Positions 31,869 to 51,199 of a DNA stretch of 64,000 nt are shown piece by piece. Under the pieces are notes generated by a model. The model was not told the origin of the DNA and made no database searches. It saw only the letters and a list, made by a program, of their open reading frames with translations. Numbering within the stretch: the stretch's first letter is position 1; every line of letters begins with the position of its first letter. Origin of the DNA: Rhizobium rhododendri (GTDB taxonomy: Bacteria > Pseudomonadota > Alphaproteobacteria > Rhizobiales > Rhizobiaceae); contig NZ_CP117267.1 in the NCBI RefSeq assembly GCF_007000325.2, forward strand, positions 186,001-250,000, given 5' to 3'. Made by a program: the position numbers and the translations under genes.

Positions 31869-33812
31869 CTATTCTGCGGCGATAGCGTGCGGATTTTCGT
31901 CCTCGACCATGAACGGCACGGTGCGCGGGGGCAGGGCAGGCACATCGAAGTGCTCTGGCTCCAGCCCCTGTCTGCCGCGCTCGTACATCGTTTCAAAAGC
32001 CATCTGCAGGTGATCGCAGAAGCGCTCCGCGTCGAACAGCGGCATGACGTAGCGGTTGCGGATCAGCCGTTCCTTGTATTCCTGCACGCGAGCGCGATCG
32101 TTGGCCAGCGCAACGGCCATGTCCTCGTAGCCCTGCATGTCCGGGGCAACCAGTTCGGGTACGCCGATGGCATTCAGCAGGCTCTCGCTGACCCTGGAGG
32201 CGAAGTTCGTACCCTTGAGAGTGAGGACGGGCAGGCCGCCCCAGAGCTGTTCGGACGTCGTTGTATGGCCGTTGACCGGGAAGGTGTCGATGCCGAGGTC
32301 GGCCAGCGCCTGGCGGTCGATATGCTCGTCATAGCGGATGCGGGTGGTGAATACGATGCGCTTGCGATGAATGCCGCGTGCCTCGAAGCGGGCGGCAAGA
32401 TTGGCTTCCGCGCGCGGTCCGTTGCAGACGACCCAGAGCACGGTGTTCTTGGTCCGCCTGAGGATATTGCACCAGACGTCGACCATCTGGGAGGTAATCT
32501 TGCGGTTGCCGTTGAATGACGCAAACACGAAGGCGTCTTCCGGCAGGCCGTGCTTGGCACGGCTGGTCGGGCGCGGCTTCGGGCGATGGGTCGGATCGTT
32601 CGGCTGGTAGCATTCCGGCAACCTGCAGAACTTTTCGTGGAAATGCGCCTTGGAGTGATCGGGAAGCACATAGTGGTCGCCGATGATGTAGTCGAGGTCG
32701 ATGTTGACGGTCGTGCCGGGAAAGCCAAGCCAGGCTACCTGGATCGGCGCCGGCATGTGGTTGAGGATCTTTGCCCTGGTATCCTTGGTGTGGCCCTTGA
32801 GATCGACGAGAATGTCGATGTTATGCGACCGGATGAGATCCGCTGCTGCCTTGTCGCTCATGTCGCGGACATCGACGACACGGCCCCATTTGGAAAAGTC
32901 GAAAGGTTGGGCCTGCTGGCTGTCCAGCGGAGAATGATCGAAGAGGACGATCTCGAAGCGATCCCTGTCCTGCAACTCGAGAACACGCTGCATCAGCTTC
33001 ATCGTCGCATGGCCAGGCCAGAAGTCCGATGACAGATAGCCGAGGCGGATCTTCTCGCCCCATGTGTGTGGCATCTTGCGGCGCTTGTCGCTGTGTCCCT
33101 CGGCAATCGGCGACGAATCGTGCACCGCAAGCTTGTTCAGCGCCTCGTCGCCACACCAGTGCAGGTGGAAGAAGGGGTTGTCGTAGCGGACGTAGTCGAG
33201 CTTGCCCGCAGCCGTTGCCGCATAAACGGGTGCTGCCTGGATATCGATGGTGGCAAGATCCGAGAACTCGCGGCTGAAGATCAGGCTGAGCGTCCGGAAG
33301 GTGATGTTGTCGGGATATCGCTTGAAAAGCGTTGTCGCGATATGGCGGTTGCCATCGTCGTAGAGATCGTCGCTGAGAAGCTTGGCCGCCAGCGTCAGAT
33401 GGCGCAGGTGCAACCCGTCTGCCAGGATTTTCTTGAGGCCGCCCAGCAGTGCCTTCTGCTGTCGCGCGAGCAGGATGGTGGCCAGCACATAGGCCACGTC
33501 GGGGTCCTTGAGCGCCAAAGGGAAGATCAGCGAGCCGATGGCCAGTGCTGCGTCTTCATTGCCGCTCTCGAAGTGCAGCAGCAGGGCGTCGCGCAGATAT
33601 TCCTCCCGCACGGGCTTCTGGCGACCCGCGAGTTCGAACGAACTGGCCGCCTCGGATTTGAAGCCGAGTTTCTGCAGTGTCTTCCCAAGCAGGGCGTAGG
33701 TCTTCGGCGAGGTATCGACGTCGATCAGCGCGTTGAGCGCCTCGAGGGCCCGCGTGTAGTGGCCTTTTCGGTAGTGATCGGAGGCGATCGAAAAAGCAGC
33801 TTTGTAATTCAA
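31869..33812 (-). CDS. TPR plus GT41 O-linked glycosyltransferase (SPINDLY/FlmG type), candidate flagellin glycosyltransferase
   Basis: The 647-residue soluble protein has TPR-like helices at about 1-180 (HYRKGHYTRALEALNALIDV; KTYALLGKTLQKLGFKSEAA). A GT-B glycosyltransferase of the O-GlcNAc transferase family follows at about 250-625. By alignment from memory with human OGT, the key residues are kept: His268 (SSDFWPGHAT), His341 (DLKGHTKDTRAK), the APIQVAWLGFPGT block, Lys438 (ASFNGNRKIT) and His516 (VNGHTTTSEQLWGG). The layout matches Caulobacter FlmG, whose TPR part binds flagellin. It is divergent from the five-flagellin cluster, which suggests flagellins as substrate; this is inference, and donor sugar genes are not in the window. 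Confidence 0.85.
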   Translation of the reverse strand: MNYKAAFSIASDHYRKGHYTRALEALNALIDVDTSPKTYALLGKTLQKLGFKSEAASSFELAGRQKPVREEYLRDALLLHFESGNEDAALAIGSLIFPLALKDPDVAYVLATILLARQQKALLGGLKKILADGLHLRHLTLAAKLLSDDLYDDGNRHIATTLFKRYPDNITFRTLSLIFSREFSDLATIDIQAAPVYAATAAGKLDYVRYDNPFFHLHWCGDEALNKLAVHDSSPIAEGHSDKRRKMPHTWGEKIRLGYLSSDFWPGHATMKLMQRVLELQDRDRFEIVLFDHSPLDSQQAQPFDFSKWGRVVDVRDMSDKAAADLIRSHNIDILVDLKGHTKDTRAKILNHMPAPIQVAWLGFPGTTVNIDLDYIIGDHYVLPDHSKAHFHEKFCRLPECYQPNDPTHRPKPRPTSRAKHGLPEDAFVFASFNGNRKITSQMVDVWCNILRRTKNTVLWVVCNGPRAEANLAARFEARGIHRKRIVFTTRIRYDEHIDRQALADLGIDTFPVNGHTTTSEQLWGGLPVLTLKGTNFASRVSESLLNAIGVPELVAPDMQGYEDMAVALANDRARVQEYKERLIRNRYVMPLFDAERFCDHLQMAFETMYERGRQGLEPEHFDVPALPPRTVPFMVEDENPHAIAAE

Positions 33813-34020: not shown

Positions 34021-34098
34021 CATGACGGGTTTGGTGTCCATTGCGATGGCACCGAGGCATGAAGCCGCTCCGTGATCGCCGGTAAAGAAGTCCGGTAA

Positions 34099-34130
34099 TG
34101 TCCCTCCATTTGTATCCAGTCCAGGGGACA
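34099..34130 (+). promoter_or_regulatory. Flagellin leader hairpin masking the flaA ribosome-binding site
   Basis: TGTCCCT (34099-34105) can pair with GGGGACA (34124-34130): six Watson-Crick pairs plus one wobble. The 3' arm is the Shine-Dalgarno of flaA, 8-9 bases before the ATG at 34137. The same element precedes the next three flagellins; here the second-arm A replaces the G of the others, giving a T-A instead of a T-G pair. Confidence 0.6.
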
Positions 34131-34136
34131 AGCCTA

Positions 34137-35051
34137 ATGACGAGTATTCAGACCAACAACTCCGCAATGGCAGCACTGCAGACACTGCGGAATGTCAACA
34201 CCAACCTGAACAGCACGCAGACCGCTGTTTCTACCGGCCTGCGCATTTCCAAGGCCTCCGACAACGCCACATACTGGTCGGTTGCCACGACGATGAAGTC
34301 TGACGTCGGCGCCCTCAGTGCCGTCTCCGATACGCTCGGTCTCGGTGCTGCAAAGGTCGACACAGCCTACACCGCAATGGACAGCGCCATCGACATCGTC
34401 GGCCAGATCAAGGACAAGCTCGTCACTGCCAAGGAAGGCAGCGTCGACAAGACCAAGGTTCAGGCTGAACTTACACAGCTCCAGGCGCAGCTGAAAAGCG
34501 TTGCCCAGTCGGCTTCGTTCAACGGCGAAAACTGGGTCGTTGCCGCTTCCGGTGGCGATGCTTCGGTCGTCTCTTCCTTCGTTCGCAATTCCTCGGGCGG
34601 CGTGTCGGTATCTTCCGCAAGCTACACCTTCAACGCAGGTGCAAAGGGCAACGTTCTGTTCGGTTCGAGCGGTGGCAGCATCGATCTGACGTCGGGCATT
34701 CTCGGCACCAAGGACACCAGCGCCGGCAACTTCTCGGTCGCCAGCCTTGATATCTCCGGCATGACCGGCGGCCAGATCGACAGCGCCATGAACATGGTGG
34801 AAACAGCTCTGTCGTCGATGACAAGCGCTGCTGCACAGCTGGGTTCGCTGTCCAGCCGTATCGACCTGCAGACGACGTTTGCATCGTCGCTGAGCGACGC
34901 CATCACCTCGGGTGTTGGCAAGCTGGTCGACGCCAACATGGAAGAAGAATCGAGCAAGCTGTCTGCCCTGCAGACACAGCAGCAGCTGGCCATCCAGTCG
35001 CTCTCGATCGCTAACTCCTCGTCGCAGAGCATCCTGTCGCTCTTCCGTTAA
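34137..35051 (+). CDS. flaA: Flagellin FlaA
   Basis: The 304-residue filament subunit has conserved D0/D1 helices at both ends (MTSIQTNNSAMAALQTLRNV; LQTQQQLAIQSLSIANSSSQ) and a short variable centre (about 150-215), without D2/D3 domains, as in complex rhizobial flagella. I chose the ATG at 34137, with AGGGGA upstream; the frame stays open to an ATG at 34098 that lies inside the leader hairpin and would place 13 atypical residues before the export-competent N-terminus. As the first gene of the array it is probably the principal flagellin, by analogy with S. meliloti. Confidence 0.95.
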   Translation: MTSIQTNNSAMAALQTLRNVNTNLNSTQTAVSTGLRISKASDNATYWSVATTMKSDVGALSAVSDTLGLGAAKVDTAYTAMDSAIDIVGQIKDKLVTAKEGSVDKTKVQAELTQLQAQLKSVAQSASFNGENWVVAASGGDASVVSSFVRNSSGGVSVSSASYTFNAGAKGNVLFGSSGGSIDLTSGILGTKDTSAGNFSVASLDISGMTGGQIDSAMNMVETALSSMTSAAAQLGSLSSRIDLQTTFASSLSDAITSGVGKLVDANMEEESSKLSALQTQQQLAIQSLSIANSSSQSILSLFR

Positions 35052-35060
35052 GGCTAAAAA

Positions 35061-35082
35061 TACCGATCGTTCGCGATCGGTA
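35061..35082 (+). repeat. Perfect stem-loop with TTCG loop after flaA
   Basis: TACCGATCG and CGATCGGTA form a perfect 9-bp stem closed by a TTCG tetraloop, 10 bases after the flaA stop. It has no T-run and is followed 22 bases later by a true terminator, so it more likely stabilises the flaA mRNA 3' end than ends transcription. Confidence 0.6.
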
Positions 35083-35103
35083 AACCTTCCTAAACAAAGA
35101 ATT

Positions 35104-35134
35104 AACCGCGCCTCTCTAAGGCGCGGTTTTTTTT
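35104..35134 (+). terminator. Terminator after flaA
   Basis: AACCGCGCC and GGCGCGGTT form a 9-bp stem with a seven-base loop, ending in eight T. It is nearly identical to the terminator after flaB, which points to tandem duplication including the 3' end. It separates flaA from flaB transcription. Confidence 0.92.
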
Positions 35135-35178
35135 AATCTATTTCTTCTTTGACGTTCTTCTTTCCTTAACTGTATTGG

Positions 35179-35243
35179 TGTCATCTAGGCCTATGAAACG
35201 GTGAGTTAACCCTAACATTAAAGGTTAACAGGCATGATGCTGG
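35179..35243 (+). promoter_or_regulatory. flaB: Conserved promoter block upstream of flaB
   Basis: The block reads TGTCATCT, then AACGG, GTTAACC, and GGCATGATG, with fixed order and nearly fixed spacing (52 bases from the first to the last element). It recurs upstream of the next two flagellins. Here GTTAACC (35205) and GGTTAAC (35223) form an inverted repeat. It probably contains the class III promoter and an activator site; the elements are not assigned individually. Confidence 0.55.
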
Positions 35244-35269
35244 ATGCCGTTTCCGGCCCTGACCCGGAA

Positions 35270-35301
35270 TGTCCCTTCTATTAACCAGTGCCAAAGGGGC
35301 A
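35270..35301 (+). promoter_or_regulatory. Flagellin leader hairpin masking the flaB ribosome-binding site
   Basis: TGTCCCTT (35270-35277) pairs with AAGGGGCA (35294-35301): eight pairs including one T-G wobble, with a 16-base loop. The 3' arm is the only Shine-Dalgarno-like sequence before the ATG at 35311. Confidence 0.6.
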
Positions 35302-35310
35302 ATGAATCCT

Positions 35311-36231
35311 ATGACGAGCATCAACACCAACAATGCAGCAATGTCCGCTCTGCAGACACTGCGCAATGTCAATGCCAATTTGACGAACACGCAGACCGCC
35401 GTTTCGACAGGCCTGCGCATTTCCAAGGCTGCCGACAACGCTACCTATTGGTCGGTCGCTACCACGATGAAGTCCGACGTCGGCGCCCTCGGTGCCGTAT
35501 CCGACGCCCTCGGCCTCGGTGCTGCCAAGGTCGACACAGCCTACACTGCCATGGACAGCTCGATCTCCATCGTCAGCCAGATCAAGGACAAGCTCGTCAC
35601 TGCCAAGGAAGGCAGCGTCGACAAGTCCAAGGTCCAGGGCGAACTCACCCAGCTGCAGGCGCAGCTGAAGAGCGTTGCCACGTCGGCTTCGTTCAACGGC
35701 GAAAACTGGGTCGTTGCAGCTTCCGGCGGTTCCGCTTCGGTCGTGTCTTCCTTCGTTCGTAATGCTTCCGGCGGCGTTTCCGTCACCACGTCGGCCTTTG
35801 CCTTCGACGCCAGCTCGCAGGGCAACGTCCTGTTCGGCTCCGACGGCTCCGGCGGTGCCAACCTGACCACCGGTATCCTCGGCTCCGCCGAGACAATCGG
35901 CTCGTCGAGCTTCTCGGTCTACAGCCTTGACATCAAGGGCATGACCGGCGCCGGCATCGATAGCGCCATGAACATGGTTGAAGCTGCTCTGTCTGCCATG
36001 ACGAGTGCTGCTGCACAGCTGGGTTCGCTGTCGAGCCGCATCGATCTGCAGACATCGTTTGCCTCTTCGCTCAGCGACTCCATCACCTCGGGTGTTGGCA
36101 AGCTGGTCGATGCCAACATGGAGCAGGAATCGAGCAAGTTGTCTGCCCTGCAGACGCAGCAGCAGCTGGCCGTCCAGTCGCTGTCGATCGCCAACTCCTC
36201 GTCGCAGAGCATCCTGTCGCTCTTCCGTTAA
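35311..36231 (+). CDS. flaB: Flagellin FlaB
   Basis: The 306-residue flagellin is very close to FlaA and the next gene in its terminal helices (MTSINTNNAAMSALQTLRNV; C-terminus IANSSSQSILSLFR). The differences are concentrated in the central third (about 150-215). The start is the ATG at 35311; the in-frame ATG at 35269 lies within the leader. It has its own promoter block and terminator and so is an independent transcription unit. Confidence 0.95.
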   Translation: MTSINTNNAAMSALQTLRNVNANLTNTQTAVSTGLRISKAADNATYWSVATTMKSDVGALGAVSDALGLGAAKVDTAYTAMDSSISIVSQIKDKLVTAKEGSVDKSKVQGELTQLQAQLKSVATSASFNGENWVVAASGGSASVVSSFVRNASGGVSVTTSAFAFDASSQGNVLFGSDGSGGANLTTGILGSAETIGSSSFSVYSLDIKGMTGAGIDSAMNMVEAALSAMTSAAAQLGSLSSRIDLQTSFASSLSDSITSGVGKLVDANMEQESSKLSALQTQQQLAVQSLSIANSSSQSILSLFR

Positions 36232-36282
36232 GAACCGCAGGGTAAAAGCTTCGGCCGCTGATCGAACTCTTAAAAATAGGTT

Positions 36283-36313
36283 AACCGCGCCCCTCTAAGG
36301 CGCGGTTTTTTTT
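36283..36313 (+). terminator. Terminator after flaB
   Basis: AACCGCGCC and GGCGCGGTT form a 9-bp stem with loop CCTCTAA, followed by a run of T to 36313. It is a near copy of the terminator after flaA. Confidence 0.92.
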
Positions 36314-36357
36314 ATCTAAATTTTCATCAGGTGTTCAGTTTTCATTAACCATGATGG

Positions 36358-36423
36358 TGTCATCTAGGGTCATTGAAACGGCAAGTTAACCTCTGCGATT
36401 TGGGTTGCTAGGCATGATGCTGA
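36358..36423 (+). promoter_or_regulatory. Conserved promoter block upstream of third flagellin
   Basis: This has the same ordered elements as before flaB: TGTCATCT at 36358, AACGG, GTTAACC, and GGCATGATG at 36411 (53 bases apart). The second half of the GTTAACC inverted repeat is degenerate here. Confidence 0.55.
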
Positions 36424-36449
36424 AAGCTGTTTCCGGCACAGACCCGGAA

Positions 36450-36479
36450 TGTCCCTTTTAATCACGCCGCCAAGGGGCA
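36450..36479 (+). promoter_or_regulatory. Flagellin leader hairpin before third flagellin
   Basis: TGTCCCTT (36450-36457) pairs with AAGGGGCA (36472-36479), with a 14-base loop. The 3' arm is the Shine-Dalgarno for the ATG at 36488. The loop sequence differs from the other copies while the arms are kept. Confidence 0.6.
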
Positions 36480-36487
36480 AAAATCTT

Positions 36488-37408
36488 ATGACGAGCATCA
36501 ACACCAATAATGCTGCGATGGCAGCCCTTTCCACATTGCGTGGAATCAACAGCAGTCTCCAGTCGACCCAGAGCGCTGTCTCTTCGGGCCTGCGTATTTC
36601 CAACGCTTCCCAGAACGCAGCCTATTGGTCGATTGCAACCACAATGAAGTCGGATATCGGCGCGATCGGCGCAGTATCGGACGCCCTCGGTCTGGGTGCT
36701 GCCAAGGTCGACACGGCCTACACGGCGATGGATAGCGCCATCGACATCGTCGGCCAGATCAAGAACAAGCTCGTCACAGCCAAGGAAGGCAGTGTCGACA
36801 AGGCAAAGGTCCAGGAAGAACTCGGCCAGCTTCAGGCGCAATTGAAGAGCGTCGCCGAATCGGCCTCCTTCAACGGTGCAAACTGGGTTGTTGCCGCCTC
36901 CGGCGGTTCTGCTTCGGTCGTCTCCTCCTTCGTGCGCAACGGTTCGGGCGGCGTCGCTGTCACAGAGTCCTCCTACTCGTTCAACACAGGGTCGCAGGGC
37001 AACGTGTTGTTCGGCGTCAACAGTAGCGGCGAAGCCGAAACCAGCTCCGGCATTCTGGGCACGACCGAACACATCGGCTCCTCGGACTTCTCCGTTTACA
37101 GCCTCGATATCCGCGGCATGACGGGTTCCGGCATCGACAGCTCGATGAACATGGTGGAATCTGCCCTGCAGGCCATGACCACTGCTGCTGCCCAGCTCGG
37201 TTCGCTGTCCAGCCGTATCGACCTCCAGACGACGTTCGCCTCGTCGCTGAGCGATGCCATCACCTCGGGTGTCGGCAAGCTCGTCGATGCCAACATGGAA
37301 CAGGAATCGAGCAAGCTCTCGGCGCTGCAGACGCAGCAGCAGCTGGCGGTCCAGTCGCTGTCGATTGCCAACTCCTCTTCGCAGAACATCCTGTCGCTGT
37401 TCAAGTAA
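36488..37408 (+). CDS. Flagellin (third of five tandem copies)
   Basis: The 306-residue paralogue of FlaA/FlaB has conserved ends (MTSINTNNAAMAALSTLRGI; IANSSSQNILSLFK) and variable centre (about 150-215). The start is the ATG at 36488; an in-frame ATG at 36449 is part of the leader. I do not assign a letter, because flagellin naming differs among rhizobia. It is probably a secondary filament subunit. Confidence 0.94.
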   Translation: MTSINTNNAAMAALSTLRGINSSLQSTQSAVSSGLRISNASQNAAYWSIATTMKSDIGAIGAVSDALGLGAAKVDTAYTAMDSAIDIVGQIKNKLVTAKEGSVDKAKVQEELGQLQAQLKSVAESASFNGANWVVAASGGSASVVSSFVRNGSGGVAVTESSYSFNTGSQGNVLFGVNSSGEAETSSGILGTTEHIGSSDFSVYSLDIRGMTGSGIDSSMNMVESALQAMTTAAAQLGSLSSRIDLQTTFASSLSDAITSGVGKLVDANMEQESSKLSALQTQQQLAVQSLSIANSSSQNILSLFK

Positions 37409-37441
37409 GCGTACGCCTTACTACATAAGCCGATCACTGAG

Positions 37442-37471
37442 CCGCGCCCCAAGGGGCGCGGTTTTATTTTT
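37442..37471 (+). terminator. Terminator after third flagellin
   Basis: CCGCGCCCC and GGGGCGCGG form a strong GC stem, followed by TTTTATTTTT. It is the same location as the terminators after flaA and flaB but with a diverged loop. Confidence 0.88.
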
Positions 37472-37518
37472 ACGATACATAAAAAAGGCCAGAGTTAACG
37501 ATCTGTTAACCAAATTTG

Positions 37519-37585
37519 TGTCATCTCGAGCTAACGCAACGGTTGGTTAACCTGTCCTAATGGTCTGTTAACAGGCATGACGCCG
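37519..37585 (+). promoter_or_regulatory. Conserved promoter block upstream of fourth flagellin
   Basis: TGTCATCT at 37519, AACGG, GTTAACC, a second GTTAAC and GGCATGACG at 37574 (55 bases from first to last element) repeat the arrangement before flaB and the third flagellin. Confidence 0.55.
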
Positions 37586-37610
37586 GTCTCCGTTCCCGGC
37601 CCTTCCGGAA

Positions 37611-37642
37611 TGTCCCTTCTAATTCACGCCGATCAAGGGGCA
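37611..37642 (+). promoter_or_regulatory. Flagellin leader hairpin before fourth flagellin
   Basis: TGTCCCTT (37611-37618) pairs with AAGGGGCA (37635-37642), with a 16-base loop. The 3' arm is the Shine-Dalgarno of the ATG at 37650. The leader ATG at 37610 is out of frame with the flagellin here, unlike in the three other genes, so the leader's conserved function is not coding. Confidence 0.6.
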
Positions 37643-37649
37643 CCTCGAC

Positions 37650-38570
37650 ATGACCAGCATTCTTACCAACGTTCCAGCCATGTCTGCATTGCAGACACTG
37701 CGCAGCATCAATACCAACCTGCAGGACACGCAGAGCCGGGTATCTTCCGGATATCGCGTCGGTAAGGCTTCGGACAATGCGGCCTACTGGTCGATTGCGA
37801 CCACGATGCGCTCCGACAACAGCGCCCTTTCAGCTGTCTCCGACGCCCTTGGCCTTGGCGCCGCGAAAGTCGATACAGCCTACACGGCTATGGATAGCGC
37901 CATCGAGGTGGTCCAGAACATCAAGAACAAGCTCGTCACCGCCAAGGAAGGCAGCGTCGACAAGAAGGATGTCCAGGAAGAAATCTCCCAGCTCCAGCAG
38001 CAATTGGAAAGCGTTGCCGAGTCCGCGTCCTTCTCCGGCCAGAACTGGATGATCGCTTCAGACGGTGCCTCAGCCTCGGTCGTATCGTCGTTCGTGCGCA
38101 CCAGCACCGGCGGTGTCGCGGTCAACAGCACCAGCTATCGCTTCAATGCCAGCTCGCAGGGCAATGTCCTGTTCGGCTCCAACGCCTACGGAGAGGTCAA
38201 CACCTCCAGCGGCATCATCGGCAGCGGCTCCCTTTTTGGCGCGACGACATTTTCTGTCTACAGCCTCGATATCAAGGGCATGACCTCCGGACAGGTCGAC
38301 AAGGCCCTGACCATGGTCGAATCAGCGCTGCAGGCGATGACCACAGCGGCATCGCAACTGGGCTCGCTTGCCAATCGCATTGATCTGCAGACGAACTTTG
38401 TCTCGGCGCTGGGCGACACGATCGATGCCGGCGTCGGCAAGCTCGTCGATGCCAATATGGAAGAGGAATCGAGCAAGCTGACTGCCCTGCAAACCCAGCA
38501 GCAGCTCGCCATCCAGTCCCTGTCCATCGCCAACAGCAGCGCCCAGAACGTCCTGTCGCTGTTCAAATAA
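37650..38570 (+). CDS. Flagellin (fourth of five tandem copies)
   Basis: The 306-residue flagellin is somewhat more diverged than the first three (MTSILTNVPAMSALQTLRSI; IANSSAQNVLSLFK), with the same length and short central region. It is preceded by its own promoter block and leader hairpin. Only a weak 5-bp hairpin without T-run (CCGCC/GGCGG near 38574-38587) follows. Confidence 0.94.
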   Translation: MTSILTNVPAMSALQTLRSINTNLQDTQSRVSSGYRVGKASDNAAYWSIATTMRSDNSALSAVSDALGLGAAKVDTAYTAMDSAIEVVQNIKNKLVTAKEGSVDKKDVQEEISQLQQQLESVAESASFSGQNWMIASDGASASVVSSFVRTSTGGVAVNSTSYRFNASSQGNVLFGSNAYGEVNTSSGIIGSGSLFGATTFSVYSLDIKGMTSGQVDKALTMVESALQAMTTAASQLGSLANRIDLQTNFVSALGDTIDAGVGKLVDANMEEESSKLTALQTQQQLAIQSLSIANSSAQNVLSLFK

Positions 38571-38806
38571 CGGCCCGCCATCCGGCGGTCTCAGAGGCCA
38601 AGCCTTGAGTGTAGCTTGCGCGGCAATTGCTAAGGTCGATTTAGCGCTTGCCGCGTGGCTTCATCGCTTGTTAATGATAATACGCAGCAGTTTGTTGCAA
38701 GCGACAGGCCGAGCCGGAGAACATCCGCGCAGGCTGGCATGAAGCCGAAAAGTCGCCGCCGGTCAGCCCGGCCTGGCACCTTCACACACATCGCGGGCAT
38801 CATTCC

Positions 38807-39781
38807 ATGAGCAGCTTGACCACGAACGCTTTTGCGCTTGGCGCACTCACTGTCTTGCGCGGTGTCAACAAGGACCTGAGCACGGCCCAGCAGCAGGTGT
38901 CGTCCGGCTACCGTATCGGCTCTGCCGCTGACGATCCGTCCTACTGGTCGATGTCCATGACGATGAAGTCGGACAGCTCGAGCCTGAAGACCATCGGCGA
39001 CGCGATGTCGCTTGGCGCCAGCAAGGTCGACACCGCCTACACCGCGATGACCTCGGTGATCGACGTGCTCACGGAGATCCAGGCAAAGCTCGTCAGCGCG
39101 AGCGAGACGGGTGTCGACAAGGACAAGCTCAATACGGATATCCAGGCACTCAAGGCGCAGTTGCAATCCACCGTCGAATCCGCGTCCTTTGCCGGTTCGA
39201 ACTGGCTGTACAATTCGCAAGGGGTCGCCGACACGAGCCAGTCGGTCATCAGCAATTTCGTTCGCGGTACCTCAGGCCAGGTCACGCTCAACACGATCGA
39301 CTACGATTCCTCGCAGTCCCTGATGATCGATACGGCCGATCCCAGCCGCGGCTTGCTCACCAAGACCGTCGATGCCAACAGCATCGCTTCCGACGGCACA
39401 GGCACGGCCCGCAATTACTATCTTCTGGCGCCGGCAGGCTCGACAGGGACGTCTGGAGGCACGGAAATCTCGCTGAGCGCCGCCACGACGTCCGGCCAGG
39501 TGACCGACATGCTAAATGTCACGCATTCGCTGCTGACGGCAGCAACGTCTGCGGCATCGAACATGGGCGTCACCAAGGCGCGCATCGACAGCCAGACGAC
39601 CTTCGTTGCGGGTCTTCAGGACGCCATCGACACCAGTGTCGGCGACCTCGTGGATACCAACATGGAAGAGGCCTCGGCGCGCGTCACGTCTCTGACGACA
39701 GCCCAGCAACTGGGCGTCCAGTCGCTTTCCATTGCAAACACGATGGCCAGCAAGATCCTGGTCTTGCTGCAGAACGGCTGA
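38807..39781 (+). CDS. Divergent flagellin (fifth copy)
   Basis: The 324-residue flagellin has weaker similarity to the others: MSSLTTNAFALGALTVLRGV at the N-terminus, LTTAQQLGVQSLSIANTMAS at the C-terminus, and a longer, different centre. Its upstream region shares only GGCATGAAGCCG with flaA and has neither the Shine-Dalgarno hairpin nor the TGTCATCT block. No good ribosome-binding site is visible before the ATG. It is probably a minor or position-specific filament subunit with separate control. Confidence 0.92.
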   Translation: MSSLTTNAFALGALTVLRGVNKDLSTAQQQVSSGYRIGSAADDPSYWSMSMTMKSDSSSLKTIGDAMSLGASKVDTAYTAMTSVIDVLTEIQAKLVSASETGVDKDKLNTDIQALKAQLQSTVESASFAGSNWLYNSQGVADTSQSVISNFVRGTSGQVTLNTIDYDSSQSLMIDTADPSRGLLTKTVDANSIASDGTGTARNYYLLAPAGSTGTSGGTEISLSAATTSGQVTDMLNVTHSLLTAATSAASNMGVTKARIDSQTTFVAGLQDAIDTSVGDLVDTNMEEASARVTSLTTAQQLGVQSLSIANTMASKILVLLQNG

Positions 39782-39926: not shown

Positions 39927-40022
39927 ATGATCAACGTGTTGAACACCAAAGTCCCACCGACGGCGCCAGCCGCCGCACGTCTGAAGACGGTTTTCCGGCA
40001 GGCATTCGGGGTAGCATCATGA
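39927..40022 (+). CDS. Putative 31-residue leader ORF before the FliH-like gene
   Basis: A short frame from ATG 39927 (MINVLNTKVPPTAPAAARLK, then TVFRQAFGVAS) ends in TGA that overlaps the next ATG (ATGA at 40019). Purine-rich CGGAAGCGGA precedes the start. The overlap matches the coupling style used throughout the cluster, which supports real translation, but no homologue is known to me. Confidence 0.4.
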   Translation: MINVLNTKVPPTAPAAARLKTVFRQAFGVAS

Positions 40023-40666
40023 CCCGGATGCTATCGCGTTACCTGAAGGACTTCGGTGCGGAGCAGCCGGCCCCGGCAGCCGCCCCGGCGCCGGTGCTCA
40101 GAAGCATGCCTTTCGAAGACACCATGATCTTTCCGGAACCGGAAGAACTACCGGTGGTCGATCTCGCGGCCGAGCGTCGCGAAGCCTATGCCGAAGGCCA
40201 CGAGGCTGCCACGCTTTCGTTGTCCGAGGCGCACCAGGAGGAACTGGACGCGATCATGCTCGCCCATGAAGCGGCGCTGGAAGAATTGAAACAGAAATTT
40301 GAAACCGAAGCGGTGGAGCGCATCGCCGAGAATTTCAAGCAGATGGCGACTGCAATCGGTCTCGCCGTCAGTGCCGAGGTTGCTCGCGCGCTATCGCCGA
40401 TCCTCACCGAAACGCTCACGCAGAAGGCAATCGACGAACTCGCAAGCCGCGTCACGGCGGCGGTTCTCGACGGCGCTGTGGGCCCGATTGCCGTTAGTGG
40501 ACGGCGCGTCATGTTCGACAGCCTTGCCGCCAAGATCGATCCGGACGGCGTGCTTCTGACCTTCGTCGAGGCGCAGGACGTCGACCTCTGCGTTACCATT
40601 GGCGACGCCGTGCTCGTGACCCGCATGTCGGCCTGGGCCGATAGCCTGAGGAACGTCCTTTCATGA
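40019..40666 (+). CDS. FliH-like flagellar export regulator (candidate)
   Basis: The 215-residue soluble protein has a Pro/Ala-rich N-terminus, a long charged helix at about 50-105 (ERREAYAEGHEAATLSLSEA; HEAALEELKQKFETEAVERI) and a globular C-terminus (about 110-215, with FVEAQDVDLCVTIGDAVL). This layout and the EAYAEGHEAA stretch resemble FliH, the stator-like partner of FliI, which is otherwise missing from the window. It overlaps motB by 4 bases. The equivalent gene in S. meliloti (SMc03041, from memory) is unnamed. Identification is by architecture and position only. Confidence 0.65.
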   Translation: MTRMLSRYLKDFGAEQPAPAAAPAPVLRSMPFEDTMIFPEPEELPVVDLAAERREAYAEGHEAATLSLSEAHQEELDAIMLAHEAALEELKQKFETEAVERIAENFKQMATAIGLAVSAEVARALSPILTETLTQKAIDELASRVTAAVLDGAVGPIAVSGRRVMFDSLAAKIDPDGVLLTFVEAQDVDLCVTIGDAVLVTRMSAWADSLRNVLS

Positions 40667-50405: not shown

Positions 50406-50753
50406 ATGTATCAGTTCTCATATGCAGAAATCATGCAGGACGCAGTGGCCGACGCCAAGGAGCGGGAACGCCAGGTCCTTGATCGGTCGGTCGCTCTTCT
50501 GACGGCTGCGATGCAAAAAGAAAAATACGGTCGAGAATCGATCGAGGCACTTTTTTACACAAGACGTGTCTGGGTTGCCTTCATCGAGGATCTCAAGAAC
50601 CCCGAAAATCAGCTTGATGTCACCCTGCGTGCGAACCTTATCTCTATCGCCATCTGGATCTTGAAGGAATGCGACAGGATCAGGCGACGGAAGTCGACAA
50701 ACTACCAGGGTATCATCGACGTCACAACCATCATCAGGGATGGACTTAAATGA
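50406..50753 (+). CDS. flaF: Flagellin biosynthesis regulator FlaF
   Basis: The 115-residue soluble helical protein has the FlaF signature ([30 protein letters not shown]). In Caulobacter and Brucella FlaF is needed for flagellin production, binds flagellin as a chaperone and acts opposite FlbT. It overlaps flbT by 4 bases (ATGA). Confidence 0.93.
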
Positions 50754-51199
50754 AAAGTACACTTCGCATATCGCTTAAAGCCGGCGAACGGATCTTCATC
50801 AACGGAGCCGTGCTGCGCGTCGACCGCAAGGTCGCTCTCGAATTCCTGAACGACGTGACATTCCTCCTGGAAAACCACGTTCTCCAGCCCGAGGACGCAA
50901 CGACTCCATTGCGCCAGCTCTATTTCATCGCCCAGATGATCCTGATCAATCCGGAAGGCAAGGATCAGTCGACGGTGCTGTTCCGCAAGTCGATCGTCAT
51001 GCTGCTCAGCTGCTTCAAGAATGAAGAAGTCCTGGCCGAACTGAAGCGCATCGACGGGCTGGTCGCGACCGGCAAGGCATTCGATGCACTGAAGTCTATC
51101 CGCGGCCTCTACGTCGTTGAAGACAGCATCCTCAACAGCCCGGAAATGCCGGCTGCCACCATTGAGCAGATCCGCCGAGAAATCGCACCATGGCGGTAA
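50750..51199 (+). CDS. flbT: Flagellin mRNA regulator FlbT
   Basis: The 149-residue protein has conserved FlbT blocks ([38 protein letters not shown]). In Caulobacter FlbT acts on the 5' leader of fljK flagellin mRNA to limit its translation and stability until the hook is built. The hairpin leaders of four flagellin genes in this window are the obvious candidate targets. It overlaps flgD by 10 bases. Confidence 0.93.

Follow-up and report, generated by a model that had tools for sequence, protein, structure and literature searches.

Predicted RNA element in the flagellin leaders of Rhizobium rhododendri, a possible new on/off switch for filament production

In Bacillus, CsrA and FliW control translation of the flagellin gene hag at a leader that contains the Shine-Dalgarno (SD) sequence, and this control is tied to assembly. 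In Caulobacter crescentus, FlbT regulates a flagellin gene, reportedly fljK, through its leader. Here we describe the leaders of four flagellin genes in a 64-kb stretch of the Rhizobium rhododendri genome (the window), whose features suggest a so far undescribed switch that turns filament production on and off. They appear to belong to the kind known from Caulobacter, a flagellin leader under post-transcriptional control with FlbT as the suspected factor. As in Caulobacter, the element lies in the flagellin 5' untranslated region (its leader position being read from sequence), flbT and flaF are in the genome, and a divergent flagellin stands beside the filament flagellins; post-transcriptional control, described there, is proposed here. 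Unlike the activation that we propose, however, control by Caulobacter FlbT is repression. With the Bacillus system the leaders share the SD sequence within a flagellin leader, and control tied to assembly, known there, is again a proposal here. CsrA (PF02599) is absent from all 21 genomes searched (R. rhododendri and 20 relatives), and a CsrA switch is therefore unlikely.

A further point of comparison is RF01736 (flg-Rhizobiales RNA), like the present element a candidate structured RNA adjoining flagellar genes in the order Rhizobiales. We rejected it as the identity of the element, the window giving no match at its gathering cut-off. Unlike the window element, the two matches to RF01736 below that cut-off in 61 genomes precede a flgF-like gene or adjoin a fliL-like gene (names read from the frames). 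No family of Rfam 15, RNA thermometer families included, matches the window at its own cut-off, and six weak matches between 33850 and 40100, with expectation values (E) of up to 1, include none to RF01736. In open-licence papers and Rfam, a coverage that excludes the original Caulobacter, Brucella and Bradyrhizobium FlbT papers, we found no description of the element, its spread or its type of FlbT partner.

Anatomy of the leader element

The flagellar cluster in the window contains four flagellin genes in tandem and, after them, a fifth that is divergent; chromosome 1 of Rhizobium sp. L51/94 encodes a protein 100% identical to FlaB. An initial annotation of this DNA had proposed that a TGTCCC arm can pair with the SD arm before the first four genes, and we found this pairing in all four leaders (Table 1). 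It also held that the 3' arm of flaA turns a U-G pair into U-A, and pair 3 is indeed U-A in flaA and U-G in the other three. What it had missed is a second hairpin directly upstream, P1 (NCCGG...CCGGN), and the fifth flagellin gene, which has P1 and lacks P2. Each of the four leaders thus has two abutting hairpins: P1, a conserved AUG, and P2, in which UGUCCC pairs with the SD arm GGG(A/G)CA. The A of the AUG separates the two. The P1 loop, the P2 loop and the spacer from SD to start codon vary in length, and the distance from an upstream GCATGA box to P1 is constant: from the start of the box to the CCGG of P1 it measures 21-23 nucleotides (nt) in 349 leaders. Of the 409 examined, 362 carry box and P1 no more than 40 nt apart and form the basis of this count.

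Of 116 aligned leaders, 76 have canonical arms that are in register; 40 of these served to build a covariance model of the element, R1, which for this reason favours canonical arms. Seven of 123 representative leaders had been left out of the alignment. In the 5.96-Mb genome of R. rhododendri, R1 finds exactly four sites with E of 3e-13 to 4e-11, and the next match has an E of 0.12.

Table 1. Features of the flagellin leaders and associated genes (coordinates within the window; SD pairing, probability from RNAfold)
Feature	Coordinates	Strand	Basis
flaA GCATGA box, candidate promoter element	34057..34062	+	spacing to P1 across leaders
flaA P1 (GCCGG...CCGGT)	34078..34096	+	alignment to model R1; P1 closing pair covaries
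flaA P2: UGUCCCU 34099-34105 with SD arm GGGGACA 34124-34130	34099..34130	+	R1 48.8 bits; SD pairing 0.79
flaA flagellin coding sequence	34137..35051	+	PF00669/PF00700
flaB GCATGA box	35232..35237	+	sequence, box-P1 spacing
flaB P1 (UCCGG...CCGGA)	35252..35268	+	alignment to R1
flaB P2: UGUCCCUU 35270-35277 with AAGGGGCA 35294-35301	35270..35301	+	R1 49.1 bits; SD pairing 1.0
flaB flagellin coding sequence	35311..36231	+	reading frame, similarity
Third flagellin GCATGA box	36412..36417	+	sequence, box-P1 spacing
Third flagellin P1 (UCCGG...CCGGA)	36432..36448	+	alignment to R1
Third flagellin P2: UGUCCCUU 36450-36457 with AAGGGGCA 36472-36479	36450..36479	+	R1 52.1 bits; SD pairing 0.97
Third flagellin coding sequence	36488..37408	+	reading frame, similarity
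Fourth flagellin GCATGA box	37575..37580	+	sequence, box-P1 spacing
Fourth flagellin P1 (CCGG...CCGG; closing pair non-standard)	37596..37608	+	alignment to R1
Fourth flagellin P2: UGUCCCUU 37611-37618 with AAGGGGCA 37635-37642	37611..37642	+	R1 45.9 bits; SD pairing 0.98
Fourth flagellin coding sequence	37650..38570	+	reading frame, similarity
Fifth flagellin leader: GCATGA box 38737-38742, P1 38758-38772, CUG replacing AUG, P2 absent	38737..38772	+	no R1 match at E<=10
Fifth, divergent flagellin coding sequence	38807..39781	+	flagellin domains; 44% identity to fourth flagellin; R. leguminosarum FlaD group, support 99
flaF	50406..50753	+	PF07309, 6.5e-34
flbT, candidate trans-acting factor	50750..51199	+	PF07378, 5.8e-41; element-linked FlbT subfamily

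The GCATGA box precedes P1 in all five flagellin genes of the window, the fifth included, and is a candidate core promoter element of rhizobial flagellin genes. If it is a promoter element, as the sequence suggests, P1 probably lies near the mRNA 5' end, because its distance to the box is fixed. On our reading, transcription would begin upstream of P1, and P2 would fold in vivo and limit translation. It is highly improbable that the conserved block acts instead as DNA (promoter or operator) or as an N-terminal coding extension. Two features fit such readings: P1 forms an inverted repeat with a promoter-like box close by, and a frame beginning at the AUG runs on into the coding sequence in flaA, flaB and the third gene. 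The variable lengths of the P1 and P2 loops, however, suit hairpins and not an operator, and the AUG (or CUG) after P1 is in frame with the gene in just 64 of 286 leaders. With the other 222 out of frame, the upstream AUG was rejected as a start codon. Also rejected were an extension of P1 by pairing of CRU with the AUG, for which all three pairs occur in just 67 of 165 rows, and a competing proximal arm (UGCC near the SD), whose mean pairing on folding was 0.04.

A few individual leaders deserve mention. A flagellin gene on a plasmid of Rhizobium sp. L51/94 (locus L034), its product 91% identical to FlaB, has a complete P1-P2 leader. At two loci (L111, start 2929; L127, start 3371, reverse strand) a sequence almost identical to the gene's own start (ATGTCGAGTA) comes directly after the P1-proximal AUG and destroys P2. 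In genes that begin with ATGTCC, the start itself could pair with a GGGACA arm.

Conservation of the leader in Rhizobiales

Among 247 genomes of the order, 66 have an R1 match at E<=0.01 and 47 at E<=5e-5, in a search whose stricter filters lose weak matches. At all 29 loci fetched for the best matches, a flagellin gene starts 2-8 nt inside the 3' end of the model. Further loci, four of which come from genomes already among the 29, have a flagellin in 27 of 40 cases, and the 13 without one have E values of 7.7e-5 to 0.0096. Outside the order, in 289 genomes of the class, R1 gave weak matches in 18 genomes (E of 7e-4 to 0.009) with a flagellin at none of the 18 loci; the Caulobacter leader enters our comparison by its description alone. 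Taken together, these searches support a conserved, flagellin-specific leader RNA with a predicted SD-masking hairpin across many families of Rhizobiales.

P2 was counted by a strict stem rule (UG and four more pairs over a GG-bearing arm near the start), since a looser one produced false positives, among them the fifth flagellin of the window. The strict rule holds for 276 of the 409 leaders, against 47.8 in shuffled sequences. By group, the stem occurs in four of the five window flagellins, 124 of 189 Rhizobium leaders, 88 of 141 from the family and 60 of 64 from the order, this last group being biased by its selection through R1 matches, and in 0/10 flagellin leaders in loci around a second type of FlbT (see below). 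Leaders of the family were selected for their similarity to flaB, which had a match in 126 of 151 genomes searched; 30 loci and 40 regions were taken from these, and divergent genera are consequently thin in the set. The predicted P2 stem is thus beyond chance by comparison, not by energy.

The two arms of P2 tend to be gained and lost together. Across 311 flagellins, the 5' arm UGUCC and the 3' arm GGG(A/G)C(A/G) are both present in 187, both absent from 94 and present singly in 30. In phylogenetically independent comparisons the arms change together 9.9 times, oppositely 0.5 times and not at all 10.6 times (median p of 0.004, range 0.001-0.27).

Covariation was assessed on 165 of 166 non-redundant leaders, the two ends being aligned separately with neither arm seeing the other, by a script of our own after the idea of R-scape with two tree-based nulls and 40 simulated alignments for each. 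Of 2080 column pairs, the one that closes P1 scores highest, with a rough E of 0.0002 and 0.001 for the 14-pair structure under the two nulls and of 0.025 over all pairs under the null that keeps column rates. The six P2 5' columns change 0-19 times on the tree and the SD columns 3-25 times, compared with 34-81 times for the loop columns between them. The initial annotation had made its case depend on pair-preserving substitutions in relatives, and these occur: among the 165 rows, pair 3 reads U-A 94 times and U-G 60 times, and there are a few compensated arms (UGUUCC/GGAACA, UGCCCU/GGGGCA and UGUUCC/GGGACA). RNAalifold on a plain MAFFT alignment of the 116 leaders gave no structure, and was set aside; the SD arm is out of register there in several rows.

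Filament flagellins, exempt flagellins and FlbT subfamilies

In R. johnstonii 3841, R1 matches three of seven flagellin genes, namely flaA, flaB and flaC, the first three of the tandem (E<1e-12), and the next match (E of 0.002) lies away from flagellin positions. Passages of the study by Tambalo and colleagues (PMC2936354) report that mass spectrometry of 3841 filaments detected FlaA, FlaB and FlaC alone, that FlaD went undetected in filaments of 3841 and VF39SM though flaD is strongly transcribed, and that FlaE and FlaG were detected in strain VF39SM. Among Rhizobium flagellins, the FlaD-like group, defined by a best match to the fifth flagellin of the window, has the strict P2 in 0/49 and the GGG(A/G)C(A/G) arm in 0/49, with two members (L081 and L083) retaining UGUCCC with a CAGGGA remnant. 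The remaining Rhizobium flagellins have P2 in 128 of 145 cases; 16 of the 17 exceptions are flaB-like with altered leaders (in 3841 this is flaE, the pRL11 gene), and the start of the other (L101) is unsure. We rejected a single P2-less clade, a label that by the loose rule needs 24 changes on the tree versus 43.1 when shuffled. The FlaD group of Rhizobium alone is consistently P2-less; outside Rhizobium, P2-less flagellins are scattered on the tree, so that there is no single exempt orthologue. The element appears, from this distribution, to mark filament flagellins, with the fifth flagellin a candidate exempt or regulatory one. Solved structures gave no sign of whether the fifth flagellin resembles FljJ, and the sole match to FlbT was chance-like (E of 0.14).

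The initial annotation had also pointed to flbT and flaF in this cluster, and domain matches identify both (Table 1), with flbT 13-17 kb downstream of the leaders. In the order, FlbT occurs nearly wherever flagellins do (190 and 191 of the 247 genomes, respectively), and all 47 genomes with an R1 match at E<=5e-5 encode FlbT. The 41 FlbT proteins examined form two very distant subfamilies, seemingly tracking two flagellar systems (loci L244-L283). In a quick tree search with the Shimodaira-Hasegawa-like approximate likelihood ratio test (SH-aLRT), on FlbTs from 20 element-linked loci, the window and 20 other loci chosen by linkage, all 21 element-linked proteins fall on one side of a long branch with support of 100 and all 20 others on the opposite side. 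We looked up five genomes with two FlbTs, and in each the element is 12-13 kb away from one flbT and not near the other. Genomes with two FlbTs and two flagellar systems, which appear to be Bradyrhizobium-like, bear the element on lateral-type flagellins. The order has lateral and subpolar flagellar systems, with the lateral one alone in Rhizobiaceae, according to passages of a phylogenomic study (PMC6406911), and a review excerpt (PMC8429497) names the flbT product of Bradyrhizobium as a translational inducer of the lateral flagellins LafA1 and LafA2. The element-linked FlbT is probably the type reported to activate lateral flagellin translation.

The hairpins might merely tune expression, by setting a constant translation rate or protecting the mRNA 5' end in the absence of any regulator. 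Hairpins near an mRNA 5' end can stabilise it, and P1, at its fixed distance from the box and probably near that end, would resemble them. We nevertheless consider such passive tuning very improbable, since filament flagellins bear the element and flaD, flaE, flaG and flaH of 3841 do not, which suggests control, as does the association with one FlbT subfamily.

Some neighbouring features of the cluster are recorded here. Near-identical CCGCGCC...GGCGCGG hairpins with T runs follow flaA (35106-35134) and flaB (36285-36313), suggesting separate transcripts, and a similar one follows the third gene; these hairpins give rise to weak Rfam matches in the cluster. Divergently from flaA, 31869-33812 on the reverse strand encodes a protein with TPR-like (matches below the Pfam cut-off) and glycosyltransferase family 41 domains, a make-up that resembles the Caulobacter flagellin glycosyltransferase FlmG as described in passages of PMC7591256. 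Before motB, a frame of 215 residues (40019-40666) has no Pfam match at E<=0.001.

A proposed switch, its rivals and its meaning

We propose that P2 is a default lock that would keep the filament flagellins off until a lateral-type FlbT opens it, and we regard this proposal as evenly balanced between right and wrong. The four leaders would be copies of one cis-acting RNA element made up of the promoter-like box, about 15 nt, P1, the conserved AUG and P2. The 3' arm of P2 being the SD of the flagellin gene, P2 would hold the ribosome-binding site closed, and filament flagellin transcripts would therefore be poorly translated by default. Lateral-type FlbT would recognise the leader, probably through P1, the AUG and the 5' arm of P2, and would open P2 once the cell needs filament subunits, a decision into which FlaF and the state of export would feed. 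Both the contact of FlbT with the leader and the direction of control are inferred. The fifth flagellin, with box and P1 and without P2, is proposed to escape the block. FlbT control of the four mRNAs at a hook checkpoint, as the initial annotation suggested from Caulobacter, is a working hypothesis.

A number of results weigh against a FlbT-opened lock. RNAfold pairs the SD of the four leaders with high probability (Table 1), and SD pairing at 17 other gene starts in the window averages 0.51, with some equally high (motB, 0.90); even in the P2-less fifth flagellin, the best purine window is paired at 0.74. Against dinucleotide-shuffled upstream sequence, pairing energy gave no signal: just 11 of 409 flagellin leaders reach the 2% point or fall below it, and those of the window rank at 0.26-0.70, since GGGG readily finds a partner. 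When arms are exchanged among leaders, pairing energy is lost over the whole set (z of -4.1, 123 leaders) but not within subsets: in the 89 leaders with the canonical 5' arm, own arms are slightly weaker (z of +2.0), and in the other 34 the effect is not significant (z of -1.2). The overall effect thus partly reflects presence versus absence of P2. No P2 pair covaries significantly among the 165 leaders, and exchange of whole leaders could also yield the joint gain and loss of arms. Strong R1 matches occur in just 47 of the 247 genomes of the order, though 191 have flagellins. One genus of the family (L284-L313) keeps P2 over the SD in just three of 54 distinct leaders, P2 and the SD arm having changed together to other sequence, yet each of the seven genomes examined from it encodes FlbT, so that P2 is not indispensable. 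The near-coextensive occurrence of FlbT and flagellins means that the subfamily linkage could merely mark the lineage of the flagellar system. Passages of PMC2936354 describe shorter filaments in flaE and flaH mutants of 3841 and thinner ones in a flaD mutant of VF39SM, and P2-less flagellins are therefore not wholly outside the filament. The pattern of a translational switch seen in the initial annotation accordingly holds up in part: the conserved, flagellin-specific hairpin predicted to mask the SD is there, and the check on relatives that it called for found covariation in P1 and none of significance in P2.

The near-invariance of both P2 arms, with no covariation, is what one would expect if AUGUCCC were bound as a linear motif by a protein or a small RNA, with any match to the SD incidental or secondary. 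The AUG is, moreover, kept in many P2-less leaders; in the genus that nearly lost P2, where P1 is often kept, it persists in 27 of 42 P1-bearing leaders. Part of the motif is thus conserved for some other reason, and this AUG seems to serve a function independent of P2. A purely linear site is distinctly unlikely all the same: the arms tend to be gained and lost jointly, the U-A/U-G exchange and several compensated arms keep the pairing, and the stem is found far above its shuffled expectation.

Repression of the Caulobacter type is unlikely but deserves fuller treatment. FlbT together with a flagellin partner, for example the fifth flagellin, would bind the leader and stabilise the closed P2, and secretion of the partner after hook completion would free the mRNAs. 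There is precedent, since passages citing Anderson and Gober (2000) describe Caulobacter FlbT as a repressor that binds flagellin 5' untranslated regions, which also counts against activation here, and passages of PMC7591256 add that this repression involves the divergent regulatory flagellin FljJ. The fifth flagellin of the window is divergent and P2-less, as expected of a co-repressor made first, and R. leguminosarum flaD is reported to be highly transcribed with its peptides undetected in filaments (PMC2936354). Other evidence counts against this reading. Review passages present FlbT as a proposed activator in Brucella, enabling FliC production, and as an inducer of lateral flagellins in Bradyrhizobium; flbT and flaF of A. 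fabrum were recovered in a screen for motility genes, according to excerpts, which fits activation more simply; and element-linked FlbTs form a subfamily of their own in the tree of 41 FlbTs from the order. A review passage calls the mode of action of FlbT unresolved. The Caulobacter repressor model may, by analogy with these systems, be the wrong one to transfer here.

Returning to the opening of P2 by FlbT, we tentatively offer a fuller version, itself rather unlikely. An undescribed RNA family would accompany lateral-type flagella across the order, its P1-AUG-P2 being read by a FlbT subfamily that acts as a P2-opening translation activator; the FlaD-group flagellin would escape, be made first and report export readiness through binding of FlbT or FlaF. 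If this is true, the role of the FlaD group would mirror that of FljJ with the FlbT repressor in Caulobacter, and would explain how FlbT can repress in one lineage yet activate in another.

The leaders amount to a candidate RNA family that is missing from Rfam, and R1 provides a means of annotating such leaders at flagellin genes throughout the order. Because filament flagellins carry it, an exempt paralog of the cluster does not, and one FlbT subfamily goes with it, the element offers a specific target for the question of how FlbT works, and a single genome supplies built-in positive and negative controls for its action.

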